Part shown: piece by piece, positions 18,269-43,949 of the stretch
How the letters are laid out: every line of letters begins with the position of its first letter
Position numbering within the stretch: position 1 is the first letter of the stretch
Assembly (NCBI GenBank): GCA_903813345.2
Contig: CAIIXF020000009.1
Coordinates: 29,114,740-29,178,739, forward strand
Length of the DNA: 64,000 nt
From: Owenia fusiformis
Taxonomy: Eukaryota > Annelida > Polychaeta > Sabellida > Oweniidae
Reading direction: 5' to 3'
Program-made: the position numbers and the translations under genes
The notes under the pieces: model-generated
Databases searched by the model: none
What the model was told of the DNA's origin: nothing
Seen by the model: the letters and a program-made list of their open reading frames with translations, nothing else

Positions 18269-18496
18269 TAGACGTTATTATATTAATACCTGGTGCAATG
18301 AAAGTATCTTCCTTATGCAGAACATATACTGGTTACATTTCACAACCCATTGTATTACACTATTGTTCAGAAAATGGATATTGTAATCGTCAACATACAG
18401 CGTGGCCGATCTATTTGAAAGTAATGGAAATATATTTCTTTAAACTCAGATCTGCTAACAGAAAAACAGATCAACAAATACGATGTGATATGATTT

Positions 18497-21065: not shown

Positions 21066-21084
21066 TACTTTTTATACAATTTAT

Positions 21085-21943: not shown

Positions 21944-22969
21944 CTAGTCTTGTTGTGCCGGTTTACAACAAAACAGTTTGACGGCACCTTTCTTGAAATC
22001 TTGAAACTGAATCGAGTAAAGAAGCGGATTAATTGCGCAGTTGCATAATGTTACAGCATTTGATAAGTTGTAGAAGTAGCCTTGAAATGACAGTGGGACT
22101 CCAGATAGGTAAAGAAAATCAAATATTTTTTTTGGTGTGGTACATATGAAATGAAGCATTGCAACTAAAAGCAGGGTTTTGACGATGTTTCGTCGTGCCT
22201 GAATCATCTTGAGACGTCGCATATCTGTGGATAAACCGACGGTTAGATTTGTGTTGGAATGCAGAAACCAAGCCATTCTTCCATAACAAATGGACATGAT
22301 GGTAATTGGAATGTACCACAATACCACTATAGTACCGTAACTAAAAACCATACGACCCACTGGCCATAGTGGGGTACCATTGTCCATCCAAGCATCAAAC
22401 ATATAGCAAATTCCATCACGGTAATTGGTAGTTGTAAAGAAAACCGAGTAACATGGCAATCCAACTAGCCAAGTCAATCCGAAAATAATTTTTATCTTCC
22501 CATCTGTGAATATGTATTTGTGCTTGAATGGATACATCACTGCAATGTATTTCTCTAGCGTCATGGCAACAAGGTTATAGGTTGAAATCAATACCAATGC
22601 CCAAACGAGATAATATGTCTGCAGCACGAAACAAACGAAACGCCCCGCTACTCCTTCTGGGACAGGGATGATACCATGAAGTAAATAAGTTATAATGATC
22701 ACCAAGGAAGTTAATAAATCGATAAAAGATTGATGGATTATGAATTTGTTTGTTGTCTTTGAACAGAGATACTTAAGGCTGAGCATTACTATTAACACAG
22801 TGGCGTTCCCGATCGTTCCGATCGCACCAATTGCCACATACACAATTTCCATTGTACTGCTTGCTCCCATAACAGGACCCATAGCATCGTTGCTGATTAA
22901 TTCAGTTTCGTTCCCTATGGTTAAGTTTGTGGTAGTATTGGAGACTTGCGGTCCTACGCTGACATTCAT
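21944..22969 (-). CDS. Class A GPCR, orphan peptide-receptor-like, copy 1
   Basis: Intronless 341-codon gene. The ATG at 22969 is the first in frame after an upstream TAA. Rhodopsin-family hallmarks in order: four N-glycosylation sequons before TM1 (N2, N10, N14, N19); N55 in GNATV (TM1); D84 in FIDLLTS (TM2); C113 before TM3 and C188 in extracellular loop 2 for the conserved disulphide; W167 (TM4); P221 (TM5); P279 (TM6); N314-P315-L-L-Y318 (TM7). A helix-8-like segment ends with a Cys-Cys pair suited to palmitoylation. Unusual points: DRY is replaced by E139-K-Y, and the CWxP toggle Trp is Thr (C276-T-T-P). The length is normal for the class. The ligand is unknown. It likely acts at the plasma membrane through G proteins. 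Its paralogue is at 42727-43752. The lack of introns fits lineage-expanded or retroposed GPCRs. Confidence 0.92.
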   Translation of the reverse strand: MNVSVGPQVSNTTTNLTIGNETELISNDAMGPVMGASSTMEIVYVAIGAIGTIGNATVLIVMLSLKYLCSKTTNKFIIHQSFIDLLTSLVIIITYLLHGIIPVPEGVAGRFVCFVLQTYYLVWALVLISTYNLVAMTLEKYIAVMYPFKHKYIFTDGKIKIIFGLTWLVGLPCYSVFFTTTNYRDGICYMFDAWMDNGTPLWPVGRMVFSYGTIVVLWYIPITIMSICYGRMAWFLHSNTNLTVGLSTDMRRLKMIQARRNIVKTLLLVAMLHFICTTPKKIFDFLYLSGVPLSFQGYFYNLSNAVTLCNCAINPLLYSIQFQDFKKGAVKLFCCKPAQQD

Positions 22970-23167
22970 ATTTAGCACTTGGTGATTCGCTTTGATATCA
23001 AGTATATCAGTTTATAATGAAACAGCGGTAGTTGTTGAACTCGCACTGTCACGTTTCAGTTTGTTGGGGCAGTAAGTATAATCTACAAGCATGAAATTAA
23101 TAAAGATAATATAAAGAATATTATTTCTGTGACAATAATCATATTCTGTAAAAGTACAATTTCCTAT

Positions 23168-23375
23168 TCTTGTTAATTTGAAATATGTAAATCTTTAAAG
23201 CCCCCATATGAAGTTTAAACCACTCTGGCTTGTATTGTAGTCTTACTCAATATTATCAAAGTGTGATATGTGAAACCTTTTTTTTTAATTTCAAAAAGTG
23301 TTTTTTTTATATTCGAAAAAATGTTAATTTATTTAAAACTAATTTTTTGAGGCCCCATGTATCCTTCACATCAAT
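23168..23375. other. Unit 1-specific segment replacing the unit 2 insertion
   Basis: Between the shared words TCCTATT and GTAGTATTCATCATCATG the two units differ completely: 0.2 kb of A/T-rich sequence here, 0.53 kb of repeat in unit 2. Part of this segment (TTTAAAGCCCCCATATGAAG) resembles the shared GGGGACTTTAAAAGCCC downstream, so this may be the ancestral state. Confidence 0.5.
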
Positions 23376-23659
23376 GCGTAGTATTCATCATCATGTGTTT
23401 TTTGCCGAAAAAGTAAGTTCAAAAGTAAGGTAAGCGAGAAATGAGCTCATCAATGCATGAAAACGGTTCATAGAAATGCATTTGAAAATTTTAGTTCTCA
23501 TAGAAACCAATGGTATAATAATATTCAATATATTCTTATTTTTAACATGGTTAGATTATCAACAATTTCTGAAGTTTAGCAATTAAGAAAAAGGTAAATG
23601 AATGATAAAACATATTTTTAAACTTTACATGGGGACTTTAAAAGCCCTGTCAAACGTTA

Positions 23660-23850
23660 AAACCACTCACATTGTATCCTTACCAAATGTTACCAAAATG
23701 TATATGTAAAACATTTCCTTTGAGTTAAGAAGTACTCGATTGAAAAAGAAACATTACCACTCACATTGTACCCTTACCAAAGGTTACCAAAATGTATATG
23801 TAAACCATTTCCGTTGAGTTAAGAAGTGATCGTGGTTGAAAAAGAAACAT
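23660..23850. repeat. Local ~98-bp tandem duplication
   Basis: CCACTCACATTGTATCCTTA, then CCAAAATGTATATGTAAA, then TTGAGTTAAGAAGT occur twice. The same pair is present in unit 2 at about 44778-44960, so it pre-dates the large duplication. Confidence 0.75.
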
Positions 23851-24309
23851 TTGCTAAAAAGTGCAAAAAAATTTAGTTACGGATTATTGAGACCAATAGT
23901 GCAGAAATATATAACACATAAGAATTAATTCAAGTTAGACCGACAGCTTCGTTTGTTTCTGTGAGCTTGATTAGCGTATTTAAAAAAGATTAATAACAGA
24001 AAAAAATTCAATATATTTGCATCAAAAAGTGCCTTGAAATTAAACATATATGTCTACATGATGAAATAAATGGCTAACTAGTGTTACGCTTACCTCTACG
24101 GTGTTTAAACTGCTTCTTTATTCGGTACATTACACATTCAATACATACAAGTAAATAAAACAAGCAATTTACCAAACCTTTACCCAGTTTATCGAATGCT
24201 TTCGGTAAAATGTATAAACTAGTAGCCCGGACAGAATTGTTCAAAAATTGAGTAAAATTCTGACATACAAAAAAAATATTTAAGGAGCATCTTTTAATTT
24301 ATCGATATA

Positions 24310-25120
24310 ACCCCCCTATCACACCAAACTAGTTCTTACCCGTTCTTGCCAGTCCTACGAAAACGTCGTAAAACGGGCTCAATCTGGCTGTGATCGGGAA
24401 ATATGTCTGAAATAATTAGCTTCTTCGTTCTTAAACAGTCTTCAATACGTCCATCTCGTTCGCAGATCGTTCAGGTCGCACCACGTCGGTGTGCAACGTA
24501 GTAGAACGCCTCCCTTAGTCTAGAAGGTCAACATGACCTGATTACAGAACGGCATGGTCGCCATCGAATTTTGAATGGATTCAAAATTCTAAAATCACAT
24601 TCCCGTCTGAGAACGTTCATTAAGTTCGTAAATAGACCTTAGAAAGTTGCAGCTACGTTCATTCCGTTCGCACACAGTTTAAAACCAGTTTTGGAGAACG
24701 CAGTGGCAACTTGTTTGGTGTGATAGCTATATTTTTGCTAACTCGTTCATAAGCAGTGTTAAATACGTTCTTAATCAGTTTAAACCCGTTTGCAATTAGT
24801 TCTACCTCGTTCTAAACACGTCCTCAGACAGTTCAACTCGTTGTTAAAACGTCCATAGTAGGATTGAAGTACGACGGTTCCGTTCGTAGTACGTCCAGCT
24901 CGTCGTTAGTACGTTTTCACTCGTTCTAATTGTAGAACGTGACGACCACGAGGAGATTTTGAGCATTGTCTAAGTTCTAGAGGACCTACCCGTTCGAGTA
25001 CGTTCGATGAAGTTTGTAAATAGATCCCAAACGGTTCTTAGTAGGTCCAGTCCGTTCGTACACAGTTGAAGCCCACTTTCGAGAACGTAGTGAGAACTAG
25101 TTTGGTGTGATAGTAGGGTT
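24310..25120. mobile_element. MITE inserted in unit 1 only
   Basis: Bounded by inverted repeats CTATCACACCAAACTAGTTC and GAACTAGTTTGGTGTGATAG, extending out to ATAACCCC and GGGTTAT. A third end-like copy (CTTGTTTGGTGTGATAG) sits at about 24708, suggesting a composite or internally duplicated element. The body is full of CGTTC/GAACG words. Unit 2 has the empty site (ATCGATATTATAGGCG), so the insertion post-dates the duplication, or was lost exactly from unit 2. The target duplication is probably TA, but surrounding TA repeats make it ambiguous. Confidence 0.75.
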
Positions 25121-25556
25121 ATAGGCGTTCATAGTATGACTGACACAAATACATACTTAATCTTTTTGCCTTATATGTGTTCAAAATGGCGGCATATTTT
25201 GTGAATTTGAATGTTCAGTTGAAAGTTAATATTTAAGAAATGTCATAGGCCTATTGAGTCGTGTAGACTGCTGCTTTGGTATGAGGTAATGACTGTATTT
25301 ATAACCCTTTGTTTTAAATTGACTTGTATGTATACCAGTACTTAAAAAGGTTTGTACATTGTATGTGCACTATATTGGTAAGGTCGCAGGACTTAACGTT
25401 TTTTGGCCATTCCATTGTTACTCGTAGTGGATTAGCAACCCTAGTTCGTTTAACCTGTGCAACTATAGGGTCATACTGCCACAGTTTGTAATGTCTTTCC
25501 CAGTCACACGCCTCTTAACCCATCCTTGGCATGCATGTGGATTGTTCTTCAGCTTT

Positions 25557-25748
25557 TCAATGGCCTCTGAGATGGCTGTTTTGAGCTCTTGAAAAGATTG
25601 AGGACCTACTCTCATCACACTCCGCACATTGGGGCGCCACCTTTTTACATCCTCTTGAACACAACCCGGAACATTTCAAAAGAGTTGATTTCATATACCC
25701 TTGGAGGGAGTTGACTTTTTGTATTTGATGATTGGTCAGTTGCTGCAT
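25557..25748 (-). pseudogene. Degenerate reading frame inside the long-TIR transposon
   Basis: A 63-codon frame, preserved in unit 2 (45862-46053) with a few changes. Other frames nearby also read protein-like (for example FQELKTAISEAIEKLKNNP), as if a transposase remnant had been frameshifted. I cannot place it in a known transposase family. Confidence 0.3.
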
Positions 25749-27165
25749 TACATCAGGATTGTAACGGTTGCAGCATGGCCCTATAGTCCTATGACAATCT
25801 TTAAATATTAACTTTCAACTGAACATTCAAATTCACAAAATATGCCGCCATTATGACCAAATATGAGGCAAAATGATGAATTATGTATTTGCGTCAGTTA
25901 TACTATGAACGCCTATAATATCAATAAATTAAGAGATATTCCTTAAATATTTTTTTTGTATGTCAGAATTTTACTCCAGTTTTCAAATATGTGATCAGAC
26001 TATGATAATACTGAAATATAAAAAAGTTATTAAAGAAAAAGTGACCATTGAACAATTCTATCCGGGCTACTATGTTATAGAAAAATAAATCATTTGGTAA
26101 GTATAGAAAAACTTATATCGACAGGGTTCAAATAGAAATTCGATATTGCGGATATAATGTGTTACTCTTAAGGAATACCATAACAATTTACGCAAGAAAT
26201 ATATCATTTATAGAATGGTGAATAAAATATGTAATTTAATGCACGTCATAGTATTTAAGAGATTTAATCCATTGGCTCTTTTGAAAACTTGATTTGATGT
26301 AACATACAAATGTTTTTACCGAATAGAAAATTGATTTAGCGAATATAAACATTCCATTTATCGAATATATTTGAATTTAATGAATAAAAAAGCAAATAAA
26401 ATGCCGTATACCTTATCTGTCCTATTGTGTGGAGAATAATTGTTTTTACAGTGAGTGTGTGTTGCTAATTCTAAACTAAGACCATACCTTTTTAGAACAA
26501 CTATTTTGAAAAATGTCTCAAAGTCTCGAATTAAAACAACATTGTAAAATCATGTTTGAAAACTTACTTGGTTCACATTTTTATCATTTATATCAAGTTT
26601 TACTCACCCGTCTCTGACAAATCAGTTGTGAAAGAAATAAGTTATCTGTGCCCTGGCTTAAATAGGAAATCGGGACGCCCCGAACGTCAATTATCTGTGA
26701 GATTTAACTATTATTAGAATGTCATATTTCCGCCTTATGTAACACTAAAAGCAAAATGTATATAAAATGTGATTCTTGTAACCTGTCAAGTATGTGCAAT
26801 GTTCAAAATGCTTATATGTCATTATAAGTGAAATTAATTAGCATATGCGGTAAGGCACATGTGTGCGACAAAAAAACAAAAATGTTGAGTAGTTAAATGT
26901 CAAAAAAGAATGACGTATCATTAACCCATGGACTTCTAGTGATCCGAGTGCATAGGACGTAAATGTATCCAGTTTGACGCTAAAATCATGGATGTTTACC
27001 CGTGATTATGTACCTCCATGCTGAAAACTACGCTACGGTCTCGAGAAATAAGACTTCTGGCAACAATTTTTTCATCATTTTACTCTAAACATCTGTCAAG
27101 TCCTGGCAGGAAGAGGAATGTCCGAAAATTGTTAAATCAATACAAAATTATAATACCTACATGAT

Positions 27166-27564
27166 ATGTATATTAAAGCACGTGTGGCATCCGTTCGGGA
27201 ATGTTGCCGGGACGGTATTCTAAAGAAGAGTCTTCGTTTTGAAAAAGAGGAAATACTTATTATATACAATGACATATTTTTATTCAGAGTCGAACAAATT
27301 GTAAAACAGACACCATTTAGCAAAAAGGGGTTCGTGCCATACATGAGGAATGTCAATGAACAATTTATGATCTCCGAGAATTTTTTCAAATCTCGGCGAT
27401 GGATTCTACGTATCAACTTATCCGTGGAATTAAGCTCGGATGGCGGAGCAGCAATGTTGAGCACACGGATCCCAAAAAAGCAACAGACGGAACACAAGTA
27501 TAAGAAAACGGCACACAAATATCCTACTATGCTGAAACAGCCCCCGATGACCCAGCGATTGTAA
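27166..27564 (+). CDS. Hypothetical ORF, intact in unit 1
   Basis: A 132-codon frame from ATG to TAA, Lys/Arg/Glu-rich with an aromatic middle (YNDIFLFRVEQIV). No domain, signal peptide or membrane segment is recognised. In unit 2 the first 80 or so codons are retained with few changes, then a 10-bp deletion near 49351 shifts the frame and ends it early. The minus strand is also open over most of this interval, which weakens the case for a gene. It lies between the long-TIR transposon and a MITE and could be part of another decayed element. Confidence 0.25.
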   Translation: MYIKARVASVRECCRDGILKKSLRFEKEEILIIYNDIFLFRVEQIVKQTPFSKKGFVPYMRNVNEQFMISENFFKSRRWILRINLSVELSSDGGAAMLSTRIPKKQQTEHKYKKTAHKYPTMLKQPPMTQRL

Positions 27565-27665
27565 TATCAATGCCATCAGAAAACAGATAAACCCTGTCTA
27601 AAATGCGTGGAATGACAAAACAGATTTTCAAGAAGATACCAACTTTATCGCCCGGAAACCGTTAC

Positions 27666-27837
27666 GCCTCAGTCACATTTGATCAACGGCAACCGTACGA
27701 CGGCCGTAGATTTCCAAAATAAGAGAAATATGCAGCATAGAATATAGGGACGAACAATTTAATGTAGATTTTCTATATCGATTTTGTGAAGCTACGATCG
27801 GCGTTACCGCCGCCGTAGAGCAAATGTGACTGAGGCA
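27666..27837. mobile_element. MITE, unit 1 copy
   Basis: 172 bp with inverted ends GCCTCAGTCACATTTGATC and GAGCAAATGTGACTGAGGC. Inner words ACGACGGCCGTAGATTT and CCGCCGTAGAG are also inverted. There is no coding capacity. The unit 2 counterpart is at 49597-49767. Confidence 0.7.
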
Positions 27838-28094
27838 TAAACAATCTACACGGAACAGAGTACAATGTCACAGTATACAAAATCCCAGTGCTCTTAGTGA
27901 TCTGAGAATCATCAGACTGTACTCTAGATAATCAGACAACATGATACCAATTGCACAATCGTTGAAATGTGTATCAAATATGTTGATCAGCTATAAAAGA
28001 AAACTATGTATCACTTGATACTTCTTTTCCAAACAGTGCAAAACAGAAAGTAAGTTTTGTTCCACAGAAATGTTTTTTCTTATTTTCCAATATG

Positions 28095-28262
28095 TATAAG
28101 GGTTATGCACTGGGAGCTTTTGAATATAGGGTATACCCTGAAGGATATATTTATATCTCCCCGAGGGGCCGAAGGGACCAAGGGGAGATATATATTTCCC
28201 GAAGGATATACCCTACTGTATATCCAAAACCGACCGTGCATAACTGGTGTATCTCATACTTG
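28095..28262. repeat. Palindromic dispersed repeat, family member 2 (unit 1)
   Basis: Inverted relative to the copy at 8424-8600. Edges are TATAAGGGTTATGCACTGGG and GTGCATAACTGGTGTATCTC. The hairpin arms include AGGGTATACCCTGAAGG, ATATATTTATATCTCCCC and GGGGAGATATATATTTCCC, around a GGGCCGAAGGGACC loop. Open frames reading across it are artefacts of the palindrome. Confidence 0.65.
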
Positions 28263-29275
28263 AGTGGGACAAGATATGCCTATACTGAAAATCGTATATA
28301 CTCGAAAAATCGTATTGTCCCGGGAAAAATCGTAATACTAAAATTCGTCTTGTCCCGGGAAAAATTGTATTGGGATCGTATTCTCTCAAAAATCGATTTG
28401 GTGAAAAACTATATATCTTGGAAAAGTATTGTAGTCCTAGATCCACACGGGGCACTAGTAGCAGAATGGTCATAGTGCGTCATGTGGTTCAAATTCTATC
28501 ATTTCTATATGTATAGCCTATTTACTTGTAACAGGGCCATAGAAAGTATGGAATAAAAAGGTCATTTCATGGTTGATTTTCAATTTGAATTAATCCACGG
28601 GAAATATACATTGACTTCGGTAAATATTATATTGACACTCGTTCGGTCAATATCATATTTCCATCGGTCAATATCATATTACCCTGGAATAAAATTCGAT
28701 ATTGAAAATCAAGCATGATATAACCTATATTTAATATTTGCAATCAATCAATCGTATATTATATTCATGAAATCAATTTAAAAGTGATATGGATAAATAA
28801 AGATACATACATAAACACAGATTCAGATTTCACATGTGCATTTTGACCACCAAGTTCCCAACAGGAAACTATAAGCACCTGTCATTGAAGAAAATCGGCA
28901 AACGATCCCAATGCTTTGGAGTTATATACTTGTAGAAACAAAGATATGCCCCTTAGAAGGATATTATATTACGTGCTCACACACGATCATGATACAGATT
29001 TCGCTGAACTTGTTAGATCATTTTAATATGGTGAATATGATTTGATAGCACATGATCAATAGTACATGATGATGAAGTTATATTGCATTTGGATTTCCAT
29101 GAAGCAAATTGTTTGAATATCATGATTGATGGTGACGTTAGAGTCAGAGTGGTATAACATACACGCAATCTTTATGATAAATGATGCTGCTGAACTTGTG
29201 CTTTAATAAGCTGAGGAAAATGATCAGATGACGCTGTGATCAGTTGTATGGAAATTTGAATTTTAATCAAACAAT

Positions 29276-29482
29276 TCATTTATATTTTATTGATAGCCTG
29301 GTGAGATCTGTTTTTCGGTTACTTAATTTATTTTGTATCTTCAGAGCCTCATTCTCATGGCAACCTCTAAATAATCCACGATAACTAAATCCTAAATCCT
29401 GACGAGGGGGATTTCGAATCTTGAATACACAAGAAATAAACTTGTCATAGGAAGGACAAGGTGCAATTATTGGCAAATATCC
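29276..29482 (-). CDS. Possible terminal coding exon, unit 2 (hypothetical)
   Basis: Counterpart of 16027-16233 with one residue change. The upstream sequence differs: unit 2 has TTTTGACCATAG before the exon, while unit 1 lacks 18 bp there and reads TTACACCATAG. Both keep an AG acceptor. The function is unknown. Confidence 0.25.
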   Translation of the reverse strand, partial: GYLPIIAPCPSYDKFISCVFKIRNPPRQDLGFSYRGLFRGCHENEALKIQNKLSNRKTDLTRLSIKYK

Positions 29483-31159
29483 CTATGGTCAAAATGAATC
29501 ATTCGTAGGTGTAACATGAAGAATAAAATGTCATATAATACTTTGGAAAATATTAAAGTGCTCGGACACACATAAGCTGAGATAGGGATCATTTCGTTCA
29601 GTAAGGTTATTGAACTACATGGGGCTGTGCACCATTGACTTAACATGAGGATATCAGCAGATCCCAATAGAGGCCATTGGTTTCCATTGATTATCACAGA
29701 AATACCAAAAATACACTATGACCTGAATCGATTGCAAACTTAATAATTTCACAATACGACACAAATGGTTTATCTCATCATATGTGCAAATATGAAGTTT
29801 GCAATCGATTCAGGTCATACTTAAAATTAAAAGATTGTACATTTTTTCATCATTTTTTCCCTACAAAATGGCTATAGAAAAATGCTCCAAAAACAACTTT
29901 TATCAAATATCATTAAAGTTTGTAAAACCAAAGATTATACTATAATTACCAGTATATTTCATTATGTAGTAACATATTTGGATAAGATGCAGGGATGCGT
30001 AGGATGTAAATGGATTTTGACAGACACAAAAATACTTCCTGGTTTGGAATCTATGCCTCTACACTTCATGATTGAATTATGACCCTAATAAGTGGCCTAT
30101 ACATCAATACAGTGCTGTATATAGGTCAACAAGATACTAGTGTGCATATAAATGTAATAATTGAAGCGGAATACTCATTTTGAAAAATCAGATGAATTAT
30201 GGGGAGATCCCAATGGAGTGTGTGTAAGGTCCCTTCACAGCTTGGTATGACATTATTTGAACCAATTGGACATGAGTTTATATGAGATTTCGACTGGGAG
30301 ACATTTTCATTGTTTTCGTTGTACTAGAGATTTTACATTTTGGCATGCCATCTCCTGATACCTTGGTGAACTAAGTCATGTGATCATTTATATCCAATCA
30401 GAATGCATTTCTGCCACATAGTGATAGCATAGTGATCCAAAGCTAAACCAAGGTGTAGGAAGGGTTTATATTATCATATAGAAGGGGTGCACTTTTCTAA
30501 TTGGCCATGGTTGACATGCATGTTTGCAAACTAAGTACTTGCATCAAGAGCTCTGACTGGCATCCTAACAAAATAAATTCATACTACACTGATGCCTGGG
30601 TCACATTTGCTCCGTTTGTTCAATATTGTATTCAATTTTGAACAAAATACTCAATCGGCATGGCGCCGTAGTGAAAATCGGAGCAATCTGCATTACTTGT
30701 ACACAGTGTATACCAATAGCCCATTTTCAGCATAGCAATTTCTAAGAAGGGTTTCCAAAATGCTCCATCATGGAATACATTGACCCTCTCTTCTTACATG
30801 ATAGACACAGACATGTTTCTTGATGCGATGTGTACCAGAATGAAAGCTCTGGCTTCTTCCTAATTTGGCGGGAGGGTGCAAAGTACTTTCTTGATCATTA
30901 AAAATAAATGCCATTGTCACAGAAACTCTGCATTTTATGTAAATCCATTGAATATTTATCTGCATGCTCGAAGTTAAGTAAGTTAAGAAGATCAGATTCT
31001 TTATAACGCTTGATCCAAATCTATTTGATATTCAAAATCTAAGTAAACCTCACTTTTTGAAGAACCAACTATCTATCATATTACTCAGATTGGATTAATC
31101 AATATTCTCATACTCTCTCTAGTTTGTATGAATGAATGACCCTAAACATCATGTGAAAG

Positions 31160-31450
31160 ACTTCTCAGAAAATGTGCTCAATATATTACTCTAAATCATA
31201 CATGTCATAGGAGCTTTGAAATTTTGAAAAGTTGTCTGAAACAAAAATTGTGATCATAAAAAGAGAATGGATTGCTTTCTATAGCAGTTTTCTCATTTTT
31301 CTATTTTTAGGAATGAATTCAAATTTTCAAAAGCTTCTATAATTTCAAATAATATATTTGGCACACTTTCTCAAAAATGCAATAGATTTTGTCTGGTGAC
31401 CTTTCTAAAAGTCCAACTTTTAACTGTTTTTGAGTCACATTTTCTGAGTC
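31160..31450. repeat. Imperfect palindrome related to 37765-38520
   Basis: AGAAAATGTGCTCAATATATTACTCT on the left pairs with ATATATTTGGCACACTTTCTC on the right. The same words and the flanking TTTTGAGTCACATTTTCTGA occur in the larger palindrome at 37765-38520, so this is a diverged and shorter relative. Confidence 0.45.
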
Positions 31451-31751
31451 ACACTCCTCTTTGTATACTTTCTCCAGTATGTATGAATCGAAACTTGGTT
31501 AATTTCCCATGTGCCTAAACCAATATTTTATTTTAATGTTTTATTTACTTTCTGTGTATGTGTGTATAGACTACTATTTATATTTTTCCAGTGTATATAT
31601 GAAACAATAAATTTTAACTGTGTATTGACAAATATTATGTACTTTCTCCAGTGTGTATGAGCAAATATTATGTACTTTCACTAGTTATTTAACCAATACT
31701 CTGTACGTTCATCCACACTGGAGAAAGTACATAGTATTTGTTCATACAAAA

Positions 31752-32026
31752 TGAGAAATTTTACAAGTAAATTTTCTATTAATTACAATACAAACCTATT
31801 CCATGACATATGCTAATACCCCTAATTTGGAAAAATGGGCAAGTCCAAAAACAACAGGATAACCTGAATCCCTCTAGGTCAACTGACCTAACACCCCTTT
31901 ATATGCTATATCTTCATAATTGTACGCAGTAAAACTTAAAAATACTGCGGGGAGGCCGGGTGGGCCTATGGTCATGGAATAGGTTTGTATTGTAATTAAT
32001 AGAAAATTTACTTGTAAAATTTCTCA
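31752..32026. mobile_element. 275-bp MITE with 56-bp perfect TIRs
   Basis: Ends TGAGAAATTTTACAAGTAAA and the exact complement are identical for 56 bp. The interior (about 31794-31920) matches, inverted, the right end of the larger nested element (37145-37300), including TTGGAAAAATGGGCAAGTCC and TAGGTCAACTGACCTAACAC. It is therefore probably an internally deleted derivative of that family, abutting it directly. Confidence 0.7.
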
Positions 32027-32269
32027 ATTACATACAATCCAACCTATTCCATGACATATGCTGAATTAAAAGTAAAGGAGGTGGGACCCCGATTAAGCCC
32101 AAAAGTATAGTAAATATATATACACAAGTACTTATAATAAAAAGTAAAATTCATATTACCAAAAAGTACTCTGATCTCACAAACCATAGTGATCCCTAGT
32201 AGAACAGCCACCATCATCCATTGTAAGGCAGAGGCTGTGACACATCTGTAACACTGTTATTGTCCTATC

Positions 32270-32635
32270 ATAGTGAGCAGTCTTAGCCATCTAAGGGTAA
32301 TGACCAACTCCTATGAATAGAGACTGGTTAACCAAGGATGGGCCGTTTAACCAAACGAGGCAACCTTGCAGTTCTTCAAGGGTCCAGGTCACAAGCTAGT
32401 TGAGTTGAACCCTTCTGCAAAACAGTTCAGCTACACATCTGGGAGACTGTATGTCCTTTCACAGTGAGTATCCTTACCCATCTAAGGGTTGCGAATAACT
32501 CCTATGAATAGAACTGGTTAGCCAAGGATGGGCCGTTTAACCAAACAAGGCAACCTTGTAGTTCTTCAAAGGTCCAGGTCACAAGCTGGTTGAGTTGAAC
32601 CCTTCTGCAAAACAGTTTCGCTTACACAAGAACTG
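32270..32635. repeat. ~191-bp tandem duplication
   Basis: CATCTAAGGG at 32288 and 32479, then ACTCCTATGAATAGA, CCAAGGATGGGCCGTTTAAC and CACAAGCTGGTTGAGTTGAA occur in both copies with a few differences. Confidence 0.85.
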
Positions 32636-34349
32636 GATAGACAAGGAATGGCTGTGTACAAAATAAAGACAAACCAAGTCCACCCAGTGTTACTTCCAAT
32701 CACCAGACTACAGTGCAATACTGAGTTGGTAACAAGTTGCAGAGTACTTAAAGTTGTATAAAGTTCTTGAAGTTGTAGACCCACCTGCAGCTTGGATGAT
32801 ATATACTTGAGATAATCCAAGCCATTGTTGTAGTTCTTGTCAGTGTAGACAAAGGCATCATCCTTTCATCCATTGGAATTCTAGGAAGCTGCCGAAAAAT
32901 CAACTACCATACTTCACAGCACAGGGTCCTAAAGGAACCAGTCTTGCATACAAAGTGAGGTGGTACACACAACATCTTGTCTAGTCTCTGCTCTCAGAGT
33001 TGGATGTTAGTTGACTAAACATCAAGTCTGGACCAGCGATGATCATAAAGCCGTTTCAGCCAACTTGTAGAATGGTTTAACGACATGGAACAATACCACT
33101 ACACATCTGCTAAGTGCTTCTTGTCTTTTGGATCCATAACAAAGTTACATGGAGCAAGACACATCCGTAGACCCAGCCAGTCGAGGTTGGTACAGCCACC
33201 AGATAACTACAGGGATAAGTCAAACCATCTTCTTTGTAGTACCAATTAGTATTCATCATAGAACAGATCAACCATTACTGCTGACCTGGGCAAGAAGAGA
33301 CATCTTCCATCTGGCCAAAAGAAGTTCTTCAATAGACAAACCAGTGCATCTAGACAGTCTATCCATCTGTATAAAACTGTAACACAGCTTCCCTAGTAGA
33401 CACAGTGGCACATCAAGCACAAAGTAGAACAGCATACAGGTCCATACTTATCTATAAAGGATTAGTATGGAGATGAATCTAAAGGTGGTTGGAAACAAGC
33501 TTGCATTTGTTGGTAAACTTGTTAGACATCTTTAAGATGAGGATATCACTGTTATGATTGTCTATAGTGCCAACAGAGCATAACAGAAAGTATTCTACTG
33601 CCATCAAAGCACTGCTAAGTGTTGTTACCACAAAGAGCTTGGCTTGGAATGCAACCTTCAATTGTTGTATTCGGCATTGTAGTTGATAACTATTGGATTG
33701 TGGTTAGAACATCCATCTGTCCAGGTTGTAACAGCAAACATCATAGCTAGTGGTGCATATTGACATACTACTGCAGAAGAATTCAGAAACTCACTGGATC
33801 AACAAAATTCTTGGCCTGGAACCAAAAACTTTCAAATGTTCTTCACAGGCTTGCAAAAGACAGACTAGTGGTATCTTCAATGGATAGTACATCTATCTGT
33901 CTATAGGTGTATAACAGCATTGAACGTAGATACTGCTACAAAAGGAAGCACTACTAGTATAGTATGAGAGTATAGTAGTGCTAGATCCACCAAAATCTGT
34001 GTCCAAAAACGTAACCTTTAATTTCATCCAGGTTTGTAGTTGGCAGCACTGGTTGACAAGAATAGTCAGCTTTTCTCCCGGGTCTGTCTAAAGCTACCAA
34101 GGGCATACATCATGGATGTAGGTGTATTGGAACACTACAGTATGTAGTAAGGTAGTGCTGGATCCACAAAGTTCTTGGCTTGGAGCATAACCTTTGTAGA
34201 TCAAACTTGGCTTGGAGGTGAAACTCTAGTATCAACAGCATATACATCAGGCCCGCAATGGTCATCGAAGTACTACTGCATGTGTCTACCATTGTTGGAT
34301 CCATACAACGCTTGGTCCAAGAACATTACTTTTCAGTAGTCTTAAGCCA

Positions 34350-34990
34350 AACTTGCAGTTGCTCAAGGGAAAAAACTATATCATTAAAACATGATAAGTT
34401 TATCCAATTGGTTAAAACTTCCAGCATTTTACTAGTTAAATAGTAGTATAAGTACTATGAACTAGTAATAATATAAAACCAAATGAAGTCTGGACTGGAG
34501 TGAAACCTTAAAGAAATCCAGGTCCAAAAAGCCCAAGATTAATTCCACAAATAAAGTGACTTGTAGTTTCTCAATGGAAAAAACAATATCATAAAACATG
34601 ATTAGTTTATCCAATTGGTTAAAACTACCAACCTGTTCTAGTTAAATAGTAGTATACATACTATGAACATGAACTAGTAATAAAATAAGACCAAAAGGAG
34701 TCTGGAACTGGAGTGATACCTGAAGGAAATCCAGGCCCAAAGACCACAAAGATGAATCCCACAATAAAAGTGACTCGCAGTTTCTCAGGGGAAAAAACTA
34801 TATGATAAAAAACATGGTCAGTTTATCCAAGTGGTTAAAACTACCAGCCTTTTACTAGTTAAAAAGTAGTATTAGTACTATGAACATGAACTAGTAAAAA
34901 TATAACACCAAATGAAGTCTGGAACTGGAGTGAAACCTTAAAGCAATCCAGGCCCGAAAACCACAAAGGCAACTTTCACAATCAAAGGGA
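34350..34990. repeat. ~210-bp tandem repeat, three copies
   Basis: GGAAAAAACTATATCATTAA-type starts near 34368, 34575 and 34789. Each is followed by AGTTTATCCAATTGGTTAAA, CTAGTTAAATAGTAGTAT and GTCTGGAACTGGAGTGA words. The copies differ by small indels. Confidence 0.8.
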
Positions 34991-37764
34991 TGTGTTTTCA
35001 ATATTAGATGAAAACCACCTTGTTTGAAAATAATAACAAATTCACGAATGAATAAGTACTATGGTTATGAATAAGAACGAAAATGAAAGAAAATAGGCTC
35101 CAGATAATAAAAATGAGAGCCCATCACTTAGAAGCATGTTTAAAACACAAGATTCATAGTATAAAGAACCTGAACCGATGTGTAGAATCCTCTCTTCTAC
35201 TGTTGATTGAATAATATAAAATTATATTTCAATCAATTGACTCATGATCTTATCAATTGAAGACAAGATTCAAACATGTGTGAAGGTACACCGCTTATAA
35301 AGAAACATATAGTTACTTAGAAAATATGCATGAAACCAATCAATACCAGAAAAGGAGTGATTGATAAGTAGCTGTTCAAAAGTATGAAGCATATTTTAAG
35401 GTGAGCCACTCCATAAAAAATGTGGTTAGGGTAAAACTAACCAAAAGATTCTAAGACATAGAGTGGACCTGAGATATGTAGATAAACAATAATGTAGATC
35501 TCCATAAAGAGACACAAAAGTACAAACAAAAAAACTTAGTAAAAATTATCCTTGTAAAATTAAAAATAATGAAACAAGATTTGAAAACCAAGATATCCAA
35601 AATGATTGTAGAATATATATCTTTTATTGACTCTCTGATGTCATTACAATGACGTATTAGTCACTAAAAACTACAATCTACAAAGCCCTATGCCCTGGTA
35701 TAAATAAAGAATGAATATGTTGTGACCAGAAGGCATTAATGAGCCATTCAATGTATCTTAAAGTAAGGCTTCTGTAAACTAAGTAATTTTACACGAATGT
35801 AAAATTAGACCTAAAATTAGTTGATGAATAAGAAATACAAATGTAAAAGCTGAGTGTATCTGTAAGCAGAAAACAACCAGAACATAGAAAACAAGTGATG
35901 TGAAGAGTAGCAAGTGAATGAAATGTTCACATCTCTTAAATTGTCAAAAAAACTAATATCAAATTAATTGACTGCTAAACCACACAAATCCATAAAGTGC
36001 TGGAACCAAGAACCCTACAAAGGGTGTAAAGTGATTGTGAATAAAGATGAGAATTAACTACATCTAGGAACAATGCAGATTCAATCCAACTGAAAAATAT
36101 GTTATCTAGTCAAGCTAGTTACTAAACTAGAAACAAAGTTGAGACTAATTCCCGACTAATAAAAAGTAAGAAAAAGAAACAAGATCAGCAAAAAGATCTT
36201 TCAATACAAGTAAAGTGTAATAATAATTTACACTCATCAATCAGCAGAGTTCTTAGAAAAACTCCACCTATTCATAATCCCTGAACACAACATTTCAAAA
36301 AAGAAAACACTGTTCGGTGGATAAGCACAGCTTGAATGTAAAGATTATTGAGTGAAAAACTAAGGAATAGTCATTCAAAGCAATGAACTCCAACAAAGCT
36401 ACTGTAGGTGCATGAATAAGGGGAATAACCTTATTAACCTAGAAGGCCATCATTACATAATATACTACACAATAAGTATAGTCATGAACTCAAAGGATTA
36501 GAACCCTAGGGCTAGTAAAAGTATACTAGTATAGGGTTAAAGAGTAAAGGTCCCTTATAGAAAGGTTCAAAGTATGAGTGAAAAACCTTTACAAAAAAAG
36601 ATAATACAAGCCAGTAGGGGTCAAATAAAGTTCAACTGGGTCTGAACTTATTGTCCCAAAAACAAGCTAGGCTAAGCCTAAAGTTGACTGTTAGCTAAGC
36701 GTGTAGCTTAAAAATAAAATCCATGGAAGGATTTCCTAAAAACTGACCTGTTTCTAGTGTTAGAAGTACACTAAAATACAACCACAAATGAGCTCACTGC
36801 ACTGAAGAATGACTTGTGACTCTGTCCAAGTACCTTCTGCTGCTGAGGAAGCCCTGCTGAGGTATAGTCTTGAAGATCTACCATGGGATAGTGGGCACCA
36901 ACTCCCTCAGTAAACTGCTACTCAAGTTGTGCATGCTTCTAATATGCACCTTGCTGTCCCAAAGATCGGCTACTTGGTCATCTGTGCCAGTTCAGATTGT
37001 AGATTTTCCAACTTCTGTAAACTATCACGTTGACTAGGTTCCTGTAACAATCTGGTAACCCCTAGTCCTGCATATATCTGCCATCAATTTACCAATTATC
37101 TAAGAAACTTCTAGCAGATAGAGTAAAAAACTGGACTCTAAAATTTTTCCACTTTTCCATACATAGGCAAGTACAATTATGAAGATATAGCATATAAAGG
37201 GGTGTTAGGTCAGTTGACCTAGAGGGATTCAGGTTATCCTGTTGTTTTTGGACTTGCCCATTTTTCCAAATTAGGGGTATTAGCATATGTCATGGAATAG
37301 GTTGGATTGTATGTAATTGTGTGTTCATAAACAATGGAGTACATGATATTTGTTCCTACATACTGGAGAAAGTATATACACAGGCGTGTTGGGTCATATT
37401 CATGTCCATACTGGAGAAAGAGCGTAATGTCTCTTCATACACATTATAGATATTGTAGTTCATTAAATTCGTTCATACTCACTGGTTTAGGTACATTTTA
37501 TTCGTTATGACACATTGATTAATTAACAAAATATTGAAAACACGGAAGAGAATGAACAACGTTTTGGTTCATGCACAATGGTGAAAGTACAAATCATTTG
37601 CTTATGCATGTTGGAGAATAGACACAAAATATTTGTTCATACATGCAGGAGAAAGTACAAAAAATGTGTTCATTGAAAGTGGAGAACCCAGATTATATAC
37701 TTTCTCCAGTTTGTATGAACAAATTCATCAATGTGTTTCATGCAACACATTTTAATTTGTAATT

Positions 37765-38520
37765 TAAGGTGCTATGTAAGTTAACAGAAATGACAAAACA
37801 AAAAATGTCAAAACCATGCCGGATTCTGAAATTCTTTTGAACCAAGATAACAGAGTTCTGTTTGGACCTCCAGTCAGTTTATCTAGCTCAACATGTTTAC
37901 ATGACCGGGAACACAAGGAAAATGGTCAGAATGACCATAAACATGATGAAATAACCTTTTCAGCCCTCTGAAAATGTGACTGAAAAAATAGCTAAAAGTA
38001 GGTGCTTAGGAAAGGTCAATGGACAGAATCTCTTGATTTTTTCAGAAAATGTGTCTAATATATTGCTCTAAATGATACAATCTTTGAAATTTTAAAAAAT
38101 TGTCTGAAACAATAATTGCTGTAGTTAAAAGGAAAATAGATCGATTTTAAATTCTTTTTTTTCATTTTTTTCTTTTTCTGAGAATGATATGATTTTTTTA
38201 AATTGTATCATTTAGAGTAATATATTGGGCACATTTTCTGAAAAAGTCAAAAGATTCTCTTCAGTGACCTTTCCTGAGCACCTACTCTTAACTATTTTTC
38301 AGTCACATTTTCAGAGGACTGCAAAGGTTATTTCATCATGTTTATGGTCATTCTGACCATTTTCCTTGTGTTACCAGTCATGTAAATGATATGTGGAACT
38401 AATTAAACTGACTGGAGGTCCAAACAGAACTCTGTTATCTTGATTCAAAAAATATTCAAAATCCAGCATGGTTTTAACATTTTTTGTTTTTCATTTCCTG
38501 TTAATTTCCATAGCACCTTA
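37765..38520. mobile_element. 756-bp palindromic (fold-back) element
   Basis: The whole segment folds on a centre near 38160. TAAGGTGCTATG at 37765 pairs with CATAGCACCTTA ending at 38520. Inner pairs include AAACAGAACTCTGTTATC with GATAACAGAGTTCTGTTT and TTTATGGTCATTCTGACC with its complement. Arms are about 370 bp with moderate divergence. Non-coding. Confidence 0.75.
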
Positions 38521-40020
38521 ATTTGTATTTTCAAGTAAGATTTTTTAGAATTGTACCTGTTTGTGAAATTAAGTCAATAAACTAACCATAAATGTCTGCA
38601 ATAATAGAAAAATCAATAGTGATTTTTTGGGCATTTTGGTAAAGCCTTTGGTTTGTAATGGGAAGATTGTCTTTATCACTACAACTGTTCTGCATGGGGT
38701 CTTTTGCACAATTGATAAATTTTATACTATACTAATACATTACTACCTGTATATAGATTTGCAATGTCTAGGTTTTATTCAAGTAACTGACTCCACTGAG
38801 TGTGTATTCAAATGTTATGCTTATAAAATGTATCGACTCCTATACTACCTTTTGAATGAAAATAAACTCTTCCAAAAGTGATAGGACCTTAGTGCACCCA
38901 TGCCATGGTATTGACCTTAGGTTGGCATGCCAAAATGTAAAATCTCTACTGGTGGTACTACTAAGGTACACTTACTTTATTATAGTTTATATCAAACTTT
39001 TTTCATTTCATATTCAATAAGTGGTATATTATGGATGCATAATACTAGATACTAAATGCAATATAATAAAACCTATAGGGTGAACCATCTCTATAACATT
39101 ATTTCAAAGTACGTAAGTCTAAGTCAATGTGAAGTTCATCTCCATTTATTTCTGTACAATATACAATTATATATCAAGCCACTGGACAACCATAGAGCAC
39201 CGAACCTATGGAAGTGGAACACCTCCAAATGCAAGTGGACCACTATATTTTGAGGTACACAAACATAGGAATGTCGATTTTCAAAAATTCATCAAATTTA
39301 TCATCAATTTTCGACCTATTGTAATTAAGGAAAAATATTGAGAAAATTTGGAGGTATTGGAAATAAAGTCAAATTAAATTTTCATCAATAGTATAAGTAT
39401 TTTTATCGTAGGCTAAGTAAATAAAAATTAAGGTAGAGAGGCTTTAACACGTAGAGTTCAATGGGAGAGCTAATGTTGCCAACTACTTATGGAGGGGAGT
39501 GTACAAAAGGCGTTCCACTTACACATGTTTAACAATGATTCACATTAGTTTTGAACATCATCAACTTAACACTGTAACAACAGAGTCTATGATTCATAAT
39601 TCAGCCACCAGGCCTTTGTGTTCAAAATAAAACATTACATACACGTTAATATTTATAGCAGATATTACAATGATAAACATTATGTAAAGATACGAAAATT
39701 ACATAAATCAAATAACAGACACTTGTTAATAATTCTACCAGGTATTACAGTGAACAAATACAACATGCAGTATTTTATTTGTCTCGAAATTCTTGAAATG
39801 AATTGAGATTTGAACAGGGTGTTCTAAATTCGCATTTTCAGGAGCAATACTGAATACATGTATATACCATGTCGCTCTTTATGCATTATTTTTTTAATTT
39901 GATTTTTTTTTATTTCAGAGAAATTGATTATTGAAATAGATTCTCCAATACATCTCTACTGAACAAACCTATAATTCCTGTAAATCGGTGATAGTTAACT
40001 TATTTCGCACGTGGGAACTG

Positions 40021-40222
40021 AGCTTGTATTCGGAACTGCAAGTTTCGGCTGACGGCTACCGGTTAACCTATCAATTTTCATAAATCAACCCGTCAGTTAG
40101 CGAATTAGCGAATCGACCACCGAGATTCACGGCAGGTACTATCCATATTTAAATGAGTTTGTCATCAAATTGTAATCAGCCCGGTAGTCGCCAGCCGGAA
40201 GTTACATTCGCGAATACAAGCT
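40021..40222. repeat. 202-bp palindromic element, unit 2
   Basis: Counterpart of 18067-18268 with the same arms and length. Confidence 0.6.
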
Positions 40223-40454
40223 TAGACGTTATTATATTAATACCTGGTGCAATGAAAGTATCTTCCTTATGCAGAACATATACTGGTTACATTTCACAAC
40301 CCATTGTATTACACTATTGTTCAGAAAATGGATATTGTAATCGTCAACATACAGCGTAGCCGATCTATTTAAAAATAATGGAAATATATTTCTTTAAACT
40401 CAGACCTGCTTAACAGAAAAACAGATCAACAAATACGATGTGATATGATTTAGA

Positions 40455-41235
40455 ATGTTATGCTATGCCTATACTTTGCTATGCTATGCATGCTATTCTA
40501 TGTTATGCTATATGCTATACTATGCTGCTACTCTACGCCATGCGAGCTAAACTTCGCAATGCATGCTATAATATGCTGCTACTATGCTATGCATGGTATT
40601 CTTCGCGATGCATGCTATACTATGCTGCTTCTCTACGCAATGCATGCTAAACTTCGCAATGCATGCTATAATATGCTGCTACTATGCTATGCATGGTATT
40701 CTTCGCGATGCATGCTATACTATGCTGCTACTCTACACTATGCATGCTATGCTTCGCGATACATGCTATACTATGCTGCTACTCTACGCAATGCATGCTT
40801 TGCTTCGCGATGCATGCTATACCATGCTGCTACTATGATATGCATGGTATTCTTCGCGATGCATGTTATACTATGCTGCTACTCTACGCTATGCATGCTA
40901 TACTTCGCGATGCATGCTTTACTATGCTGCTACTCTACGCTATGCATGCTATGCTTCGCGATGCATGCTATACTATGCTGCTACTCTACGCTATGCATGC
41001 TATGCTTAGAGATGCATGCTATACTATGCTGCTACTCTACGCTATGCATGCTATGCTTTGCGATGCATGCTATACTATGCTGCTACTCTACGTTATACAT
41101 GCTATGCTTCGCGATGCATGCTATACTATGCTGCTACGATACGCTATACATACTATGCTAAGCTATGCATGCTATACTATATTATGCTATGCGATGCTAA
41201 GCTACTTTGCTATGCCATGTATGCTATGCTATACT
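40455..41235. repeat. 51-bp GCATGC minisatellite, short allele (unit 2)
   Basis: The same 51-bp unit family as 18497-21065, but only about 0.78 kb. First and last units closely match those of unit 1 (the end block with CTATACATACTATGCTAAGC is shared), so the length difference arose in the middle after duplication. Long open frames here are repeat artefacts. Confidence 0.95.
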
Positions 41236-41254
41236 TTTTACTTTTTATACAATT

Positions 41255-42173
41255 TATAGTTTTATATGAAGCCGCTAGATAACCATACAGCATCGCACCT
41301 ATGGAAGTGGAACACCTCCCAATGCAAGCGGAACACTATATTTTTAGGTACCAAAGGCGTTCCACTTACACATGATTAACAATGGTTCACATTAGTTTTG
41401 AACATCATCAACTTAACACTGTAACAACAGAGTCTATGATTCATAATTCAGCCACAATGCCTTTGTGTTCAAAATAAAACAGGGTCAAAAACCAAGACAC
41501 AAATATTACATTCACGTTAATATTTATAGCTTATATTACAAAGATAAATATTATATAACGATTCGAAAACTACAAATCAAATAACTGACACTTGTCAATA
41601 ACTTTACCAGGTATTACAGTGAATAAATATAACATACAGTATTTTACGTATCTCGAAATTCCTATGTACAAGGTGCTCTAAATTCGCAATTTTTAGGAGC
41701 AAATACTGAATATATATCATGTCACTCTCTATGATCTATTAATTATTGAAATAGATTCTCCAATGCCTCTCCACTGAACAAACCTATAATTTATGGAATT
41801 TGGTGATAGTTCACTTATTTCGTACGTGGGAACTGAGCTAGTATTCGCAAACGCAAGTTTCGGCTGTCGGTTACCGGGTTAACCTATTTATTTTCATAAA
41901 TAAACCAATCAGTTAGCGAATAAGCGAATCAACCATCGATATACACGGCAGGTATTATTCATACTTAAATGAGTTTGCCATCAAATTGCGATCAACCCGG
42001 TAGCCGCTACCGGAAGTTACATTCGCTAACACAAGCTGGGACATTATTTATATTAATACCTGGTACAATCAAAGTATCTTCCTTATACAGAACACTTATT
42101 TGTTACATTGCAAAACACATAACATTGTATTACACTGTTGTTCAGAAAATGGATATCGTATATTTTGACATTG
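41255..42173. repeat. Complete diverged copy of the pre-array block (unit 2)
   Basis: Homologous to about 39170-40440 in the same unit, with visible divergence (for example CAAATAACTGACACTTGTC versus CAAATAACAGACACTTGTT). It includes its own version of the palindromic element (41836-42037). The stretch 41566-42173 is missing from unit 1. Confidence 0.75.
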
Positions 42174-42726
42174 TCAACATATCTAGTTGTCAACCGGTCT
42201 AGTTGAAAGGGGTTGAAAATCAGGACAAAATTTCAGAAAAAAACATGTGGATGGGTTGTTTGCATTTTCCCTGTCTCAAAGTCGAAATTATGTTATCATC
42301 CCTATGAGTGCTTTTCCTTTAAGTAATGCATTGGCCTAACAGATGCATCTGTTTAAATCCTCAGAAAATGGTCAAAATCCAAACATGACTGTCCAAAATC
42401 TGTTGCGATACTTTCCCTCCTCCTTTCAACACGAGTTTGTATCAGAATAAATCATGTGATATTAGATTTTTCCCATTATTATTTTAAAATCTAGAAATTA
42501 GTTCATCAAGGAGACATTTTTTCTGACAGTATTGTTTGATTCCAATCGGATATGGTTTAACCAAGCGATTCTAGATAGTTGGTGTCCCACGGAAAGAGAG
42601 ATCTAAAGTTATAAGTCCAAGTTTTTATGTGAATTGTCACAAACTGAGGAATGTGTGTTCCTATAGGGTCAGAATTAGTTGACGATATCAGGATAGTTCC
42701 GTATCTTTAATATGGTGTTGTCGAAA

Positions 42727-43752
42727 CTAGTCTTGTTGTGCCGGTTTACAACAAAACAGTTTGACGGCACCTTTCTTGAAATCTTGAAACTGAATCGAGT
42801 AAAGAAGCGGATTAATTGCGCAGTTGCAGAATATTACAGCATTTGATAAGTTGAAGAAGTAGCCTTGAAATGACAGTGGGACTCCAGATAGGTAAAGAAA
42901 ATCAAATAATTGTTTCGGTGTGGTACATATGACGTGAAGAATTGCAACTAAAAGCAGGGTTTTGACGATGTTTCGTCGTGCCTGAATCATCTTGAGACGT
43001 CGCATATCTGTGGATAAACCGACGGTTAGATTTGTGTTGGAATGCAGAAACCAAGCCATTCTTCCATAACAAATGGACATGATGGTAATTGGAATGTACC
43101 ACATTACCACTATAGTACCGTAACTAAAAACCATACGACCCACTGGCCATAGTTGGGTACCATTGTCCATCCAAGTATCAAACATATAGCAAATTCCATC
43201 ACGGTAATTGGTAGTTGTAAAGAAAACCGAGTAAAATGACGGTCCAACTAGCCAAGTCAATCCGAAAATAATTTTTATCTTCCCATCTGTGAATATGTAT
43301 TTGTGCTTGAATGGATACATCACTGCAATGTATTTCTCTAGCGTCATGGCAACAAGGTTATAGGTTGAAATCAATACCAATGCCCAAACGAGATAATATG
43401 TCTGCAGCACGAAACAAACGAAACGCCCCGCTACTCCTTCTGGGACAGGGATGATACCATGAAGTAAATAAGTTATAATGATCACCAAGGAAGTTAATAA
43501 ATCGATAAAAGATTGATTGATTATGAATTTGTTTGTTGTCTTTGAACAGAGATACTTAAGGCTGAGCATTACTATTAACACAGTGGCGTTCCCGATCGTT
43601 CCGATCGCACCAATTGCCACATACACAATTTCCATTGTACTGCTTGCTCCCATAACAGGACCCATAGCATCGTTGCTGATTAATTCAGTTTCGTTCCCTA
43701 TGGTTAAGTTTGTGGTAGTATTGGAGACTTGCGGTCCTACGCTGACATTCAT
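42727..43752 (-). CDS. Class A GPCR, orphan peptide-receptor-like, copy 2
   Basis: Intronless 341-codon paralogue of the gene at 21944-22969, with the same start context and all the same family landmarks (GNATV, FIDLLTS, paired Cys, TM4 Trp, TM5 Pro, NPLLY, terminal Cys pair) and the same E-K-Y and C-T-T-P departures. By my count it differs from copy 1 at 17 nucleotides: 15 nonsynonymous and 2 synonymous. The amino-acid changes are H79N, L171P, P172S, C173F, A193T, P200Q, L217M, M271I, F274V, K281Q, I282L, Y300F, T307I and L308F. Thirteen of the 14 lie from TM4 through TM7, which with the loops usually lines the ligand pocket. The frame is intact, so both copies may be functional. The ligand is unknown. 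Confidence 0.92.
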   Translation of the reverse strand: MNVSVGPQVSNTTTNLTIGNETELISNDAMGPVMGASSTMEIVYVAIGAIGTIGNATVLIVMLSLKYLCSKTTNKFIINQSFIDLLTSLVIIITYLLHGIIPVPEGVAGRFVCFVLQTYYLVWALVLISTYNLVAMTLEKYIAVMYPFKHKYIFTDGKIKIIFGLTWLVGPSFYSVFFTTTNYRDGICYMFDTWMDNGTQLWPVGRMVFSYGTIVVMWYIPITIMSICYGRMAWFLHSNTNLTVGLSTDMRRLKMIQARRNIVKTLLLVAILHVICTTPKQLFDFLYLSGVPLSFQGYFFNLSNAVIFCNCAINPLLYSIQFQDFKKGAVKLFCCKPAQQD

Positions 43753-43949
43753 ATTTAGCACTTGGTGATTCGCTTTGATATCAAGTATATCAGTTTATAA
43801 TGAAACAGCGGTAGTTGTTGAACTCGCACTGTCACGTTACAGTTTGTTGGGGCAGTAAGTATAATCTACAAGCATGAAATTAATAAAGATAATAAAGAAA
43901 ATTATTTCTGGGACAATAATCATATTGTGAAAAAGTACAATATCCTATT

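Follow-up and report, generated by a model that had tools for sequence, protein, structure and literature searches.

Two nearly identical genes for class A (rhodopsin-like) G protein-coupled receptors (GPCRs) lie on a direct tandem duplication in a stretch of 64,000 nt of Owenia fusiformis DNA (35% GC), which is called the window below. The two copies, A and B, differ mostly by amino acid replacements that are gathered in the ligand-facing half of the receptor. We give about an even chance to the reading that this tandem pair is young and has diverged in mosaic fashion, with relaxed or diversifying change in the ligand half. According to this reading, a class A GPCR gene, intact, single-exon, and resembling those for peptide receptors, would have been copied by a recent direct tandem duplication of ~13.25 kb. 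Gene conversion or recombination would then have kept some stretches alike, and others would have escaped and reached their present ~3–4% difference, the 3' half of the gene falling in an escaped stretch. The ligand-facing half would have changed its amino acids at or above the neutral rate, with the frame unbroken and the cytoplasmic side nearly identical. This would likely stem from a ligand pocket that is weakly constrained, or is diversifying mildly, in one of the two copies, probably in A.

The duplication units and the receptor genes they carry are the following.

15866-29114, forward strand: duplication unit A, 13,249 bases, colinear in self-BLAST with 29115-51737; its ends were set base by base.

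29115-51737, forward strand: duplication unit B, enlarged by insertions; its first base adjoins the end of unit A and it stops at the start of the right flank.

21944-22969, reverse strand: GPCR gene copy A, 1,026 bases, 341 aa, single exon, class A, 7tm_1 at E 4e-25.

42727-43752, reverse strand: GPCR gene copy B, 1,026 bases, 341 aa, single exon, class A, 7tm_1 at E 9.4e-26.

Both genes consist of 341 codons and a stop codon, with no frameshift and no internal stop, and the reading frame extends just 14 codons 5' of the ATG before it meets a stop. The Pfam profile 7tm_1 was matched along its entire length (1–260 of 260) with 89.2 bits by copy A and 91.3 bits by copy B, the curated cut-off being 30.5; by this profile, both copies are class A receptors. 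At the junction 29114/29115 the units follow each other with no gap and no shared bases. In the sequence as given they are a direct tandem duplication.

The same arrangement might arise as an assembly artefact, namely a false heterotype duplication, in which the two alleles of a very heterozygous animal are placed end to end and all the differences described here are allelic. Such an error could yield this geometry, in which one haplotype ends where the other begins, and a gene falsely duplicated beside itself has a precedent (PMC9516828, in excerpt). The units also carry many structural differences for a base divergence of 1.2%: indels of 8.6, 1.6, 0.8, 0.7, and 0.6 kb, a replaced upstream segment, and a minisatellite of 2.6 kb in one unit and 0.8 kb in the other. 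Against this stands the continuity of the junction and the complete lack of N in the 64 kb. Since A and B join without an assembly gap, we favor a true duplication and consider the artefact rather unlikely.

The coding sequences were aligned without gaps, and 17 bases, spread over 16 codons, are different. A recount on this alignment gave 15 nonsynonymous and two synonymous differences (the latter in H273 and P279), exactly as a previous sequence-only reading of the stretch had counted them. The 14 residue changes are H79N, L171P, P172S, C173F, A193T, P200Q, L217M, M271I, F274V, K281Q, I282L, Y300F, T307I, and L308F, with L171P resulting from a two-base change (TTG/CCG). In Ballesteros–Weinstein numbering, mapped via the conserved x.50 residues, they occupy 2.45, 4.54, 4.55, 4.56, two sites in loop 2, 5.46, 6.42, 6.45, 6.52, 6.53, 7.35, 7.42, and 7.43. 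The distribution reported by that reading was likewise confirmed, as H79N is the single change in the first half and the other 13 residues lie within the span from transmembrane helix (TM) 4 to TM7. The corresponding tracts are these.

22046-22459, reverse strand: divergent tract of copy A, spanning TM4 to TM7 and holding all coding substitutions but one (16 of 17).

42829-43242, reverse strand: counterpart of this tract in copy B.

It should be noted that the substitutions come in runs, at 22452-22459 (four in 8 bases), 22126-22133, and 22150-22157; grouped at a spacing of 10 bases, the 17 substitutions form nine groups.

Substitution rates were obtained from an alignment of the units comprising 9,552 columns in nine colinear pieces; large insertions were excluded, as was most of the minisatellite sequence at 18.5–21.1 kb. 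Pieces 2 and 3 share five columns, and the rates are not noticeably altered by this. The 121 differences comprise 104 noncoding ones, over 8,526 columns (1.22%), and the 17 of the coding sequence, over 1,026 bases (1.66%). With the noncoding kappa of 2.24, the nonsynonymous rate (dN) is 0.0208 and the synonymous rate (dS) is 0.0077, a ratio of 2.7; for residues 171–308 the values are 0.048 and 0.019, with a ratio of 2.6. The probability of at least 15 nonsynonymous changes among 17 is 0.13 under neutrality (0.11–0.20 across kappa 1–3). It falls to 0.006–0.018 at omega 0.5, to 0.0002–0.001 at omega 0.3, and to 7e-6 to 5e-5 at omega 0.2. Strong constraint (omega ≤0.3) is thus rejected for the pair, and the neutral ratio of nonsynonymous to synonymous changes (N:S) is not.

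Positive selection, by which copy A or both copies would have been driven to alter pocket residues and hence the ligand, the clusters being adaptive, is a possibility that we hold with little confidence. It overlaps with the preferred reading of a young pair, and our probabilities for the explanations do not sum to one. Both dN/dS ratios speak for it, as do the 15 nonsynonymous changes, for which the noncoding rate predicts 9.0 (one-sided P 0.04), and the enrichment at the pocket described below. However, the N:S ratio is indistinguishable from the neutral one (P 0.13), the two-sided Fisher test against noncoding DNA gives P 0.084, and the material is a single pair. Moreover, the residue changes are not more radical than chance would produce: their mean BLOSUM score is 0.07 vs −0.44 in simulations, 14% of which were as conservative or more. 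With 17 sites, all 17 would have to be nonsynonymous to clearly beat neutrality (P 0.0075), at least 16 giving P 0.0501. As the neutral ratio fits, positive selection is not demonstrated. The caution of the sequence-only reading that 17 sites cannot prove selection was therefore justified, the ratio of 15:2 fitting neutrality with P 0.11–0.20, and the dN/dS comparison with a noncoding reference that it had proposed excluded strong constraint but gave an N:S ratio compatible with neutrality.

For the pocket, we relied on the 28 positions and the TM boundaries defined in PMC3162937 (in excerpt), the list being taken unadjusted. Pocket positions account for five of the 12 changed TM residues, where about two are expected (28 of 171 TM positions; P 0.029). 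In TM4–7 alone they account for five of 11 (15 of 94 positions; P 0.014), and in TM1–3 none of the 13 pocket positions is changed. These assignments were made by sequence numbering, as an AlphaFold2 model built on the two-sequence alignment was unusable (mean pLDDT 33.9). The pocket bias is nominally significant at P 0.014–0.029. Meanwhile, 12 of the 13 changes in the second half are found beyond the helix midpoints toward the extracellular, ligand-facing end (P 0.003), the exception being the cytoplasmic M271I. This P value is optimistic, because the boundaries of the extracellular half (4.50–5.50 and 6.44–7.46) were chosen after the changes had been seen. The proposals of diversified ligand specificity or lost constraint made in the sequence-only reading are borne out as far as the rejection of strong purifying selection and the pocket bias go, and positive selection is the part that is not demonstrated.

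The clustering itself was compared with the divergence of the surrounding noncoding DNA. The 414 bases at 22046-22459 hold 16 substitutions vs 5.05 expected, with a Poisson P of 8e-5 if divergence is uniform. Noncoding divergence is itself overdispersed, with a variance/mean ratio from 2.67 (200-column bins, P 4e-8) to 4.18 (500-column bins). When a negative binomial is fitted to the noncoding bins, the P for the 16 substitutions of the tract becomes 0.018; at least 16 are present in 2.0% of the sliding 414-column noncoding windows, the maximum being 18. Two stretches near the gene illustrate the contrast in divergence.

23518-24160 (approximate limits), forward strand: noncoding comparison tract, ~0.5–1.2 kb upstream of the ATG of copy A, with 18 substitutions in 414 columns from 23745.

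22460-23118, reverse strand: quiet stretch covering the first half of the coding sequence and the 5' leader, with two substitutions in 657 aligned columns (P 0.014).

The noncoding tract equals the 3' half of the gene in divergence, and the idea of the 3' cluster as unique was accordingly rejected, a noncoding stretch at ~23.5–24.2 kb being equally divergent. Since noncoding divergence is patchy and in one stretch as high as in the 3' half of the gene, selection is not required to account for the clustering. The sliding-window check suggested earlier thus yielded a cluster that is real against a uniform rate but weaker (P 0.018) and not unique against noncoding divergence.

The 3' side is quiet too: 21093-22045, including the last 102 bases of the gene, shows three differences in 952 columns (P 0.003 for so low a number). 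A scan of the whole alignment gave P 0.0002 for windows of 200 and 414 columns, 0.004 for 500, and 0.12 for 100. The longest identical run spans 563 columns (P 0.075), and the second to fifth longest have P 0.037–0.002. A mosaic of this kind would fit with conversion between the copies, with recombination of old haplotypes (allelic), or with an uneven mutation rate. As the 5' half with its leader and the 3' side are both low and the noncoding DNA is mosaic, patchy conversion or recombination is probably a part of the explanation. The homogenizing conversion of the 5' half offered in the sequence-only reading is in keeping with the quiet 5' half, but the 3' side is equally quiet and the mosaic is general.

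Conversion could also have come from elsewhere, an unseen third paralogue having overwritten a short tract of one copy and imported the clustered changes. The tight runs in otherwise identical sequence would suit such ectopic conversion, with 23 neighboring pairs of substitutions no more than 10 columns apart vs 14.3 expected over the whole alignment, and so would the mosaic divergence. An ordinarily constrained donor, however, should supply mainly synonymous changes. Conversion from such a donor was rejected as the source of the N:S ratio (at omega 0.2, P 7e-6 to 5e-5), so that conversion alone merely shifts the question of the high ratio to the donor. In addition, tblastn of both proteins over the window with the two genes masked found no convincing third GPCR-like stretch; the best match had E 0.062 and 16% identity and lay inside the minisatellite, and the next had E 0.24 over 23 residues. 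We regard this origin as improbable.

Copy A looks derived, because it lies farther than copy B from other class A receptors by PDB matches, Pfam bits, and its lack of Asn at 2.45. Among the 26 PDB matches shared by the two copies (from the first 27 of the 60 listed for A and the best 60 for B), B scored higher in 24 and equal in two, and A was higher in none; these matches are non-independent, as many of them repeat one and the same receptor (galanin, neurotensin, or opioid). Melanin-concentrating hormone receptor 1 and later rows such as the cholecystokinin receptors, which may favor A, were outside the best 60 of copy B and so were not compared. Position 2.45 is Asn in copy B and in galanin receptor 1 but not in copy A, and the bombesin receptor has Ser there. 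Taken together, this suggests that copy A is the derived copy, although it is no substitute for an outgroup.

If copy A were non-functional and drifting freely, i.e., at an early stage of pseudogenization, a neutral N:S ratio, a greater distance from other class A receptors, and the lack of Asn 2.45 would all be understandable. On the other hand, both frames are intact, and the coding sequence has no indels vs 3.4 expected at the noncoding rate (P 0.034), or 2.8 if only frameshifting ones are considered (P 0.063). Of the 28 indels underlying this rate, two are gaps at the edges of alignment pieces (18500 and 21393); if these are dropped, the coding expectation is ~3.1. No stop was gained in the coding sequence, which has a chance probability of 0.51. 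Just one of the 13 changes in the second half is cytoplasmic, and the EKY and NPxxY motifs are unaltered. Pseudogenization therefore appears to us quite unlikely.

The class A landmark residues are N1.50, D2.50, W4.50, P5.50, P6.50, and NPxxY, and all of them were located in copy B and equally in copy A. The usual class A motifs are DRY and CWxP. Both copies have EKY at the DRY site and CTTP at the CWxP site (22133-22144 and 42916-42927), R3.50 being replaced by Lys and W6.48 by Thr. Given CTTP and EKY, the activation of these receptors may depart from that of textbook class A.

The duplication in the given sequence, the intact frames, the counts, and the patchiness are direct observations; conversion, the derived state of copy A, and any change of ligand are what we infer from them. 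Several points weigh against the reading of a young pair with a changing ligand half. Neutral drift without any effect on the pocket fits too. Patchiness is not significant in the 100-column scan (P 0.12) or for the longest identical run (P 0.075), and conversion is judged from the two copies. As the substitutions come in runs, P values that assume independent changes are too small. The quiet signaling side may reflect local history and not constraint, because both synonymous changes lie on the ligand side too. Finally, if the units are alleles, the duplication does not exist. A bolder version of the young-pair reading, to which we assign a low probability, is that within ~1% of divergence after the duplication selection rebuilt the pocket of one copy (4.56, 5.46, 6.52, 7.35, 7.42, and 7.43) and conversion kept most of the rest alike, leaving one recombining pair with a shared signaling body and a variable pocket. 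If the pair is real, it would be an early snapshot of a receptor family gaining ligands, with the same surroundings, a nearly identical signaling side, and a few pocket changes that can be tested individually. Should the cause be drift or an error of assembly, the pair warns against inferring selection from two near-identical copies.

Apart from the further indels of 0.7 and 0.6 kb, the large structural differences between the units are listed below.

30324-38946, forward strand: insertion in unit B, 8.6 kb, with perfect 24-base terminal inverted repeats (GAGATTTTACATTTTGGCATGCCA).

24309-25118, forward strand: insertion in unit A only, 810 bases, terminal inverted repeats imperfect.

47259-48897, forward strand: insertion in unit B only, 1.6 kb, terminal inverted repeats imperfect.

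23168-23374 (~206 bases) in A vs 43945-44485 (541 bases) in B, forward strand: replaced upstream segment, starting ~190 bases before the ATG of copy B.

The longest stop-to-stop open reading frame (ORF) of the 8.6-kb insertion is at most 102 aa, and the insertion is probably a large non-autonomous DNA element. It is possible that the promoters of the two receptor genes have diverged, and their expression may differ because the DNA differs from ~190 bases upstream of the ATG. The 541-base segment upstream of copy B contains a direct repeat of 213 bases (95%). Just 3' of the gene, 609 bases (41566-42174) are present in B and not in A; being related at 86% to 17969-18385, they were probably deleted in A. 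The minisatellite has a unit of ~51 bases built on ATGCT and extends over 18500-21059 in A (2.6 kb) and 40455-41232 in B (0.8 kb); the long ORFs inside it are most likely repeat artefacts. Farther to the right, at 58401-62806, a large inverted repeat with 951-base arms that are 98% complementary flanks an array of a 21-base unit (GGCCCCCAGAAGCTATA...) and looks like a foldback element.

Counted from stop to stop, 106 ORFs in the window reach 70 aa or more. Ten of these, other than the receptor genes, were put to Pfam and gave three weak matches, all below the curated cut-off. Scans of the window with Rfam (gathering threshold) and ARAGORN returned no matches, and a search for relatives in viral_contigs gave eight pattern matches, of which none was confirmed.

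Among known systems, the receptors resemble those for peptides of the galanin and bombesin type. The best solved relatives of copy B are galanin receptor 1 (71.6 bits), BRS-3 (69.4 bits), galanin receptor 2, and NPY2R; those of copy A are galanin receptors 1 and 2 and NPY2R, with BRS-3 outside its best 60. The affinity to galanin receptors is a matter of bit scores against solved structures, with other peptide receptors close behind, and the resemblance extends to class A peptide receptors in general. Both copies differ from galanin- and bombesin-like receptors in CTTP and EKY. As near-identical neighbors with allele-like differences, the copies also resemble false heterotype duplications (excerpt of PMC9516828), but no assembly gap separates the units here.

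The echinoderm chemoreceptors offer another comparison, for which we draw on excerpts of two papers. The class A genes of these lineage-specific expansions (surreal-GPCRs, starfish ApORs, and sea cucumber olfactory receptor (OR)-like genes) stand in tandem arrays with the greatest likeness between array neighbors (PMC5442662). In sea cucumber they are mostly single-exon (PMC7042368) and reported to be under purifying selection. The window has two tandem class A copies with single-exon ORFs, a number below the four or more genes by which PMC5442662 defines a cluster. In the echinoderm forms of the signature LxxPxYxxxxxLxxxDxxxxxxxxP (PMC7042368), clades OR-l1, -l3, and -l4 keep the Leu that stands four residues before Asp, and OR-l2 has mainly Asp. 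The pair reads NQSFID in B and HQSFID in A, so that Asp is kept as in OR-l2 and Leu is replaced by Gln at 2.46.

A parallel to the pattern of change itself, and a point in favor of positive selection, comes from the tertiary-amine receptors TAAR7 and TAAR8, with positive selection reported around the pocket (PMC4786312), and the lemur V1Rs, with positive selection reported in transmembrane regions (PMC3914689), both papers again in excerpt. Selection was tested there on many sequences and here there is one pair. As in the two genes described here, these duplicating families carry replacement changes around the pocket or in TM regions, and change focused in this way is a known pattern of duplicating GPCR families.

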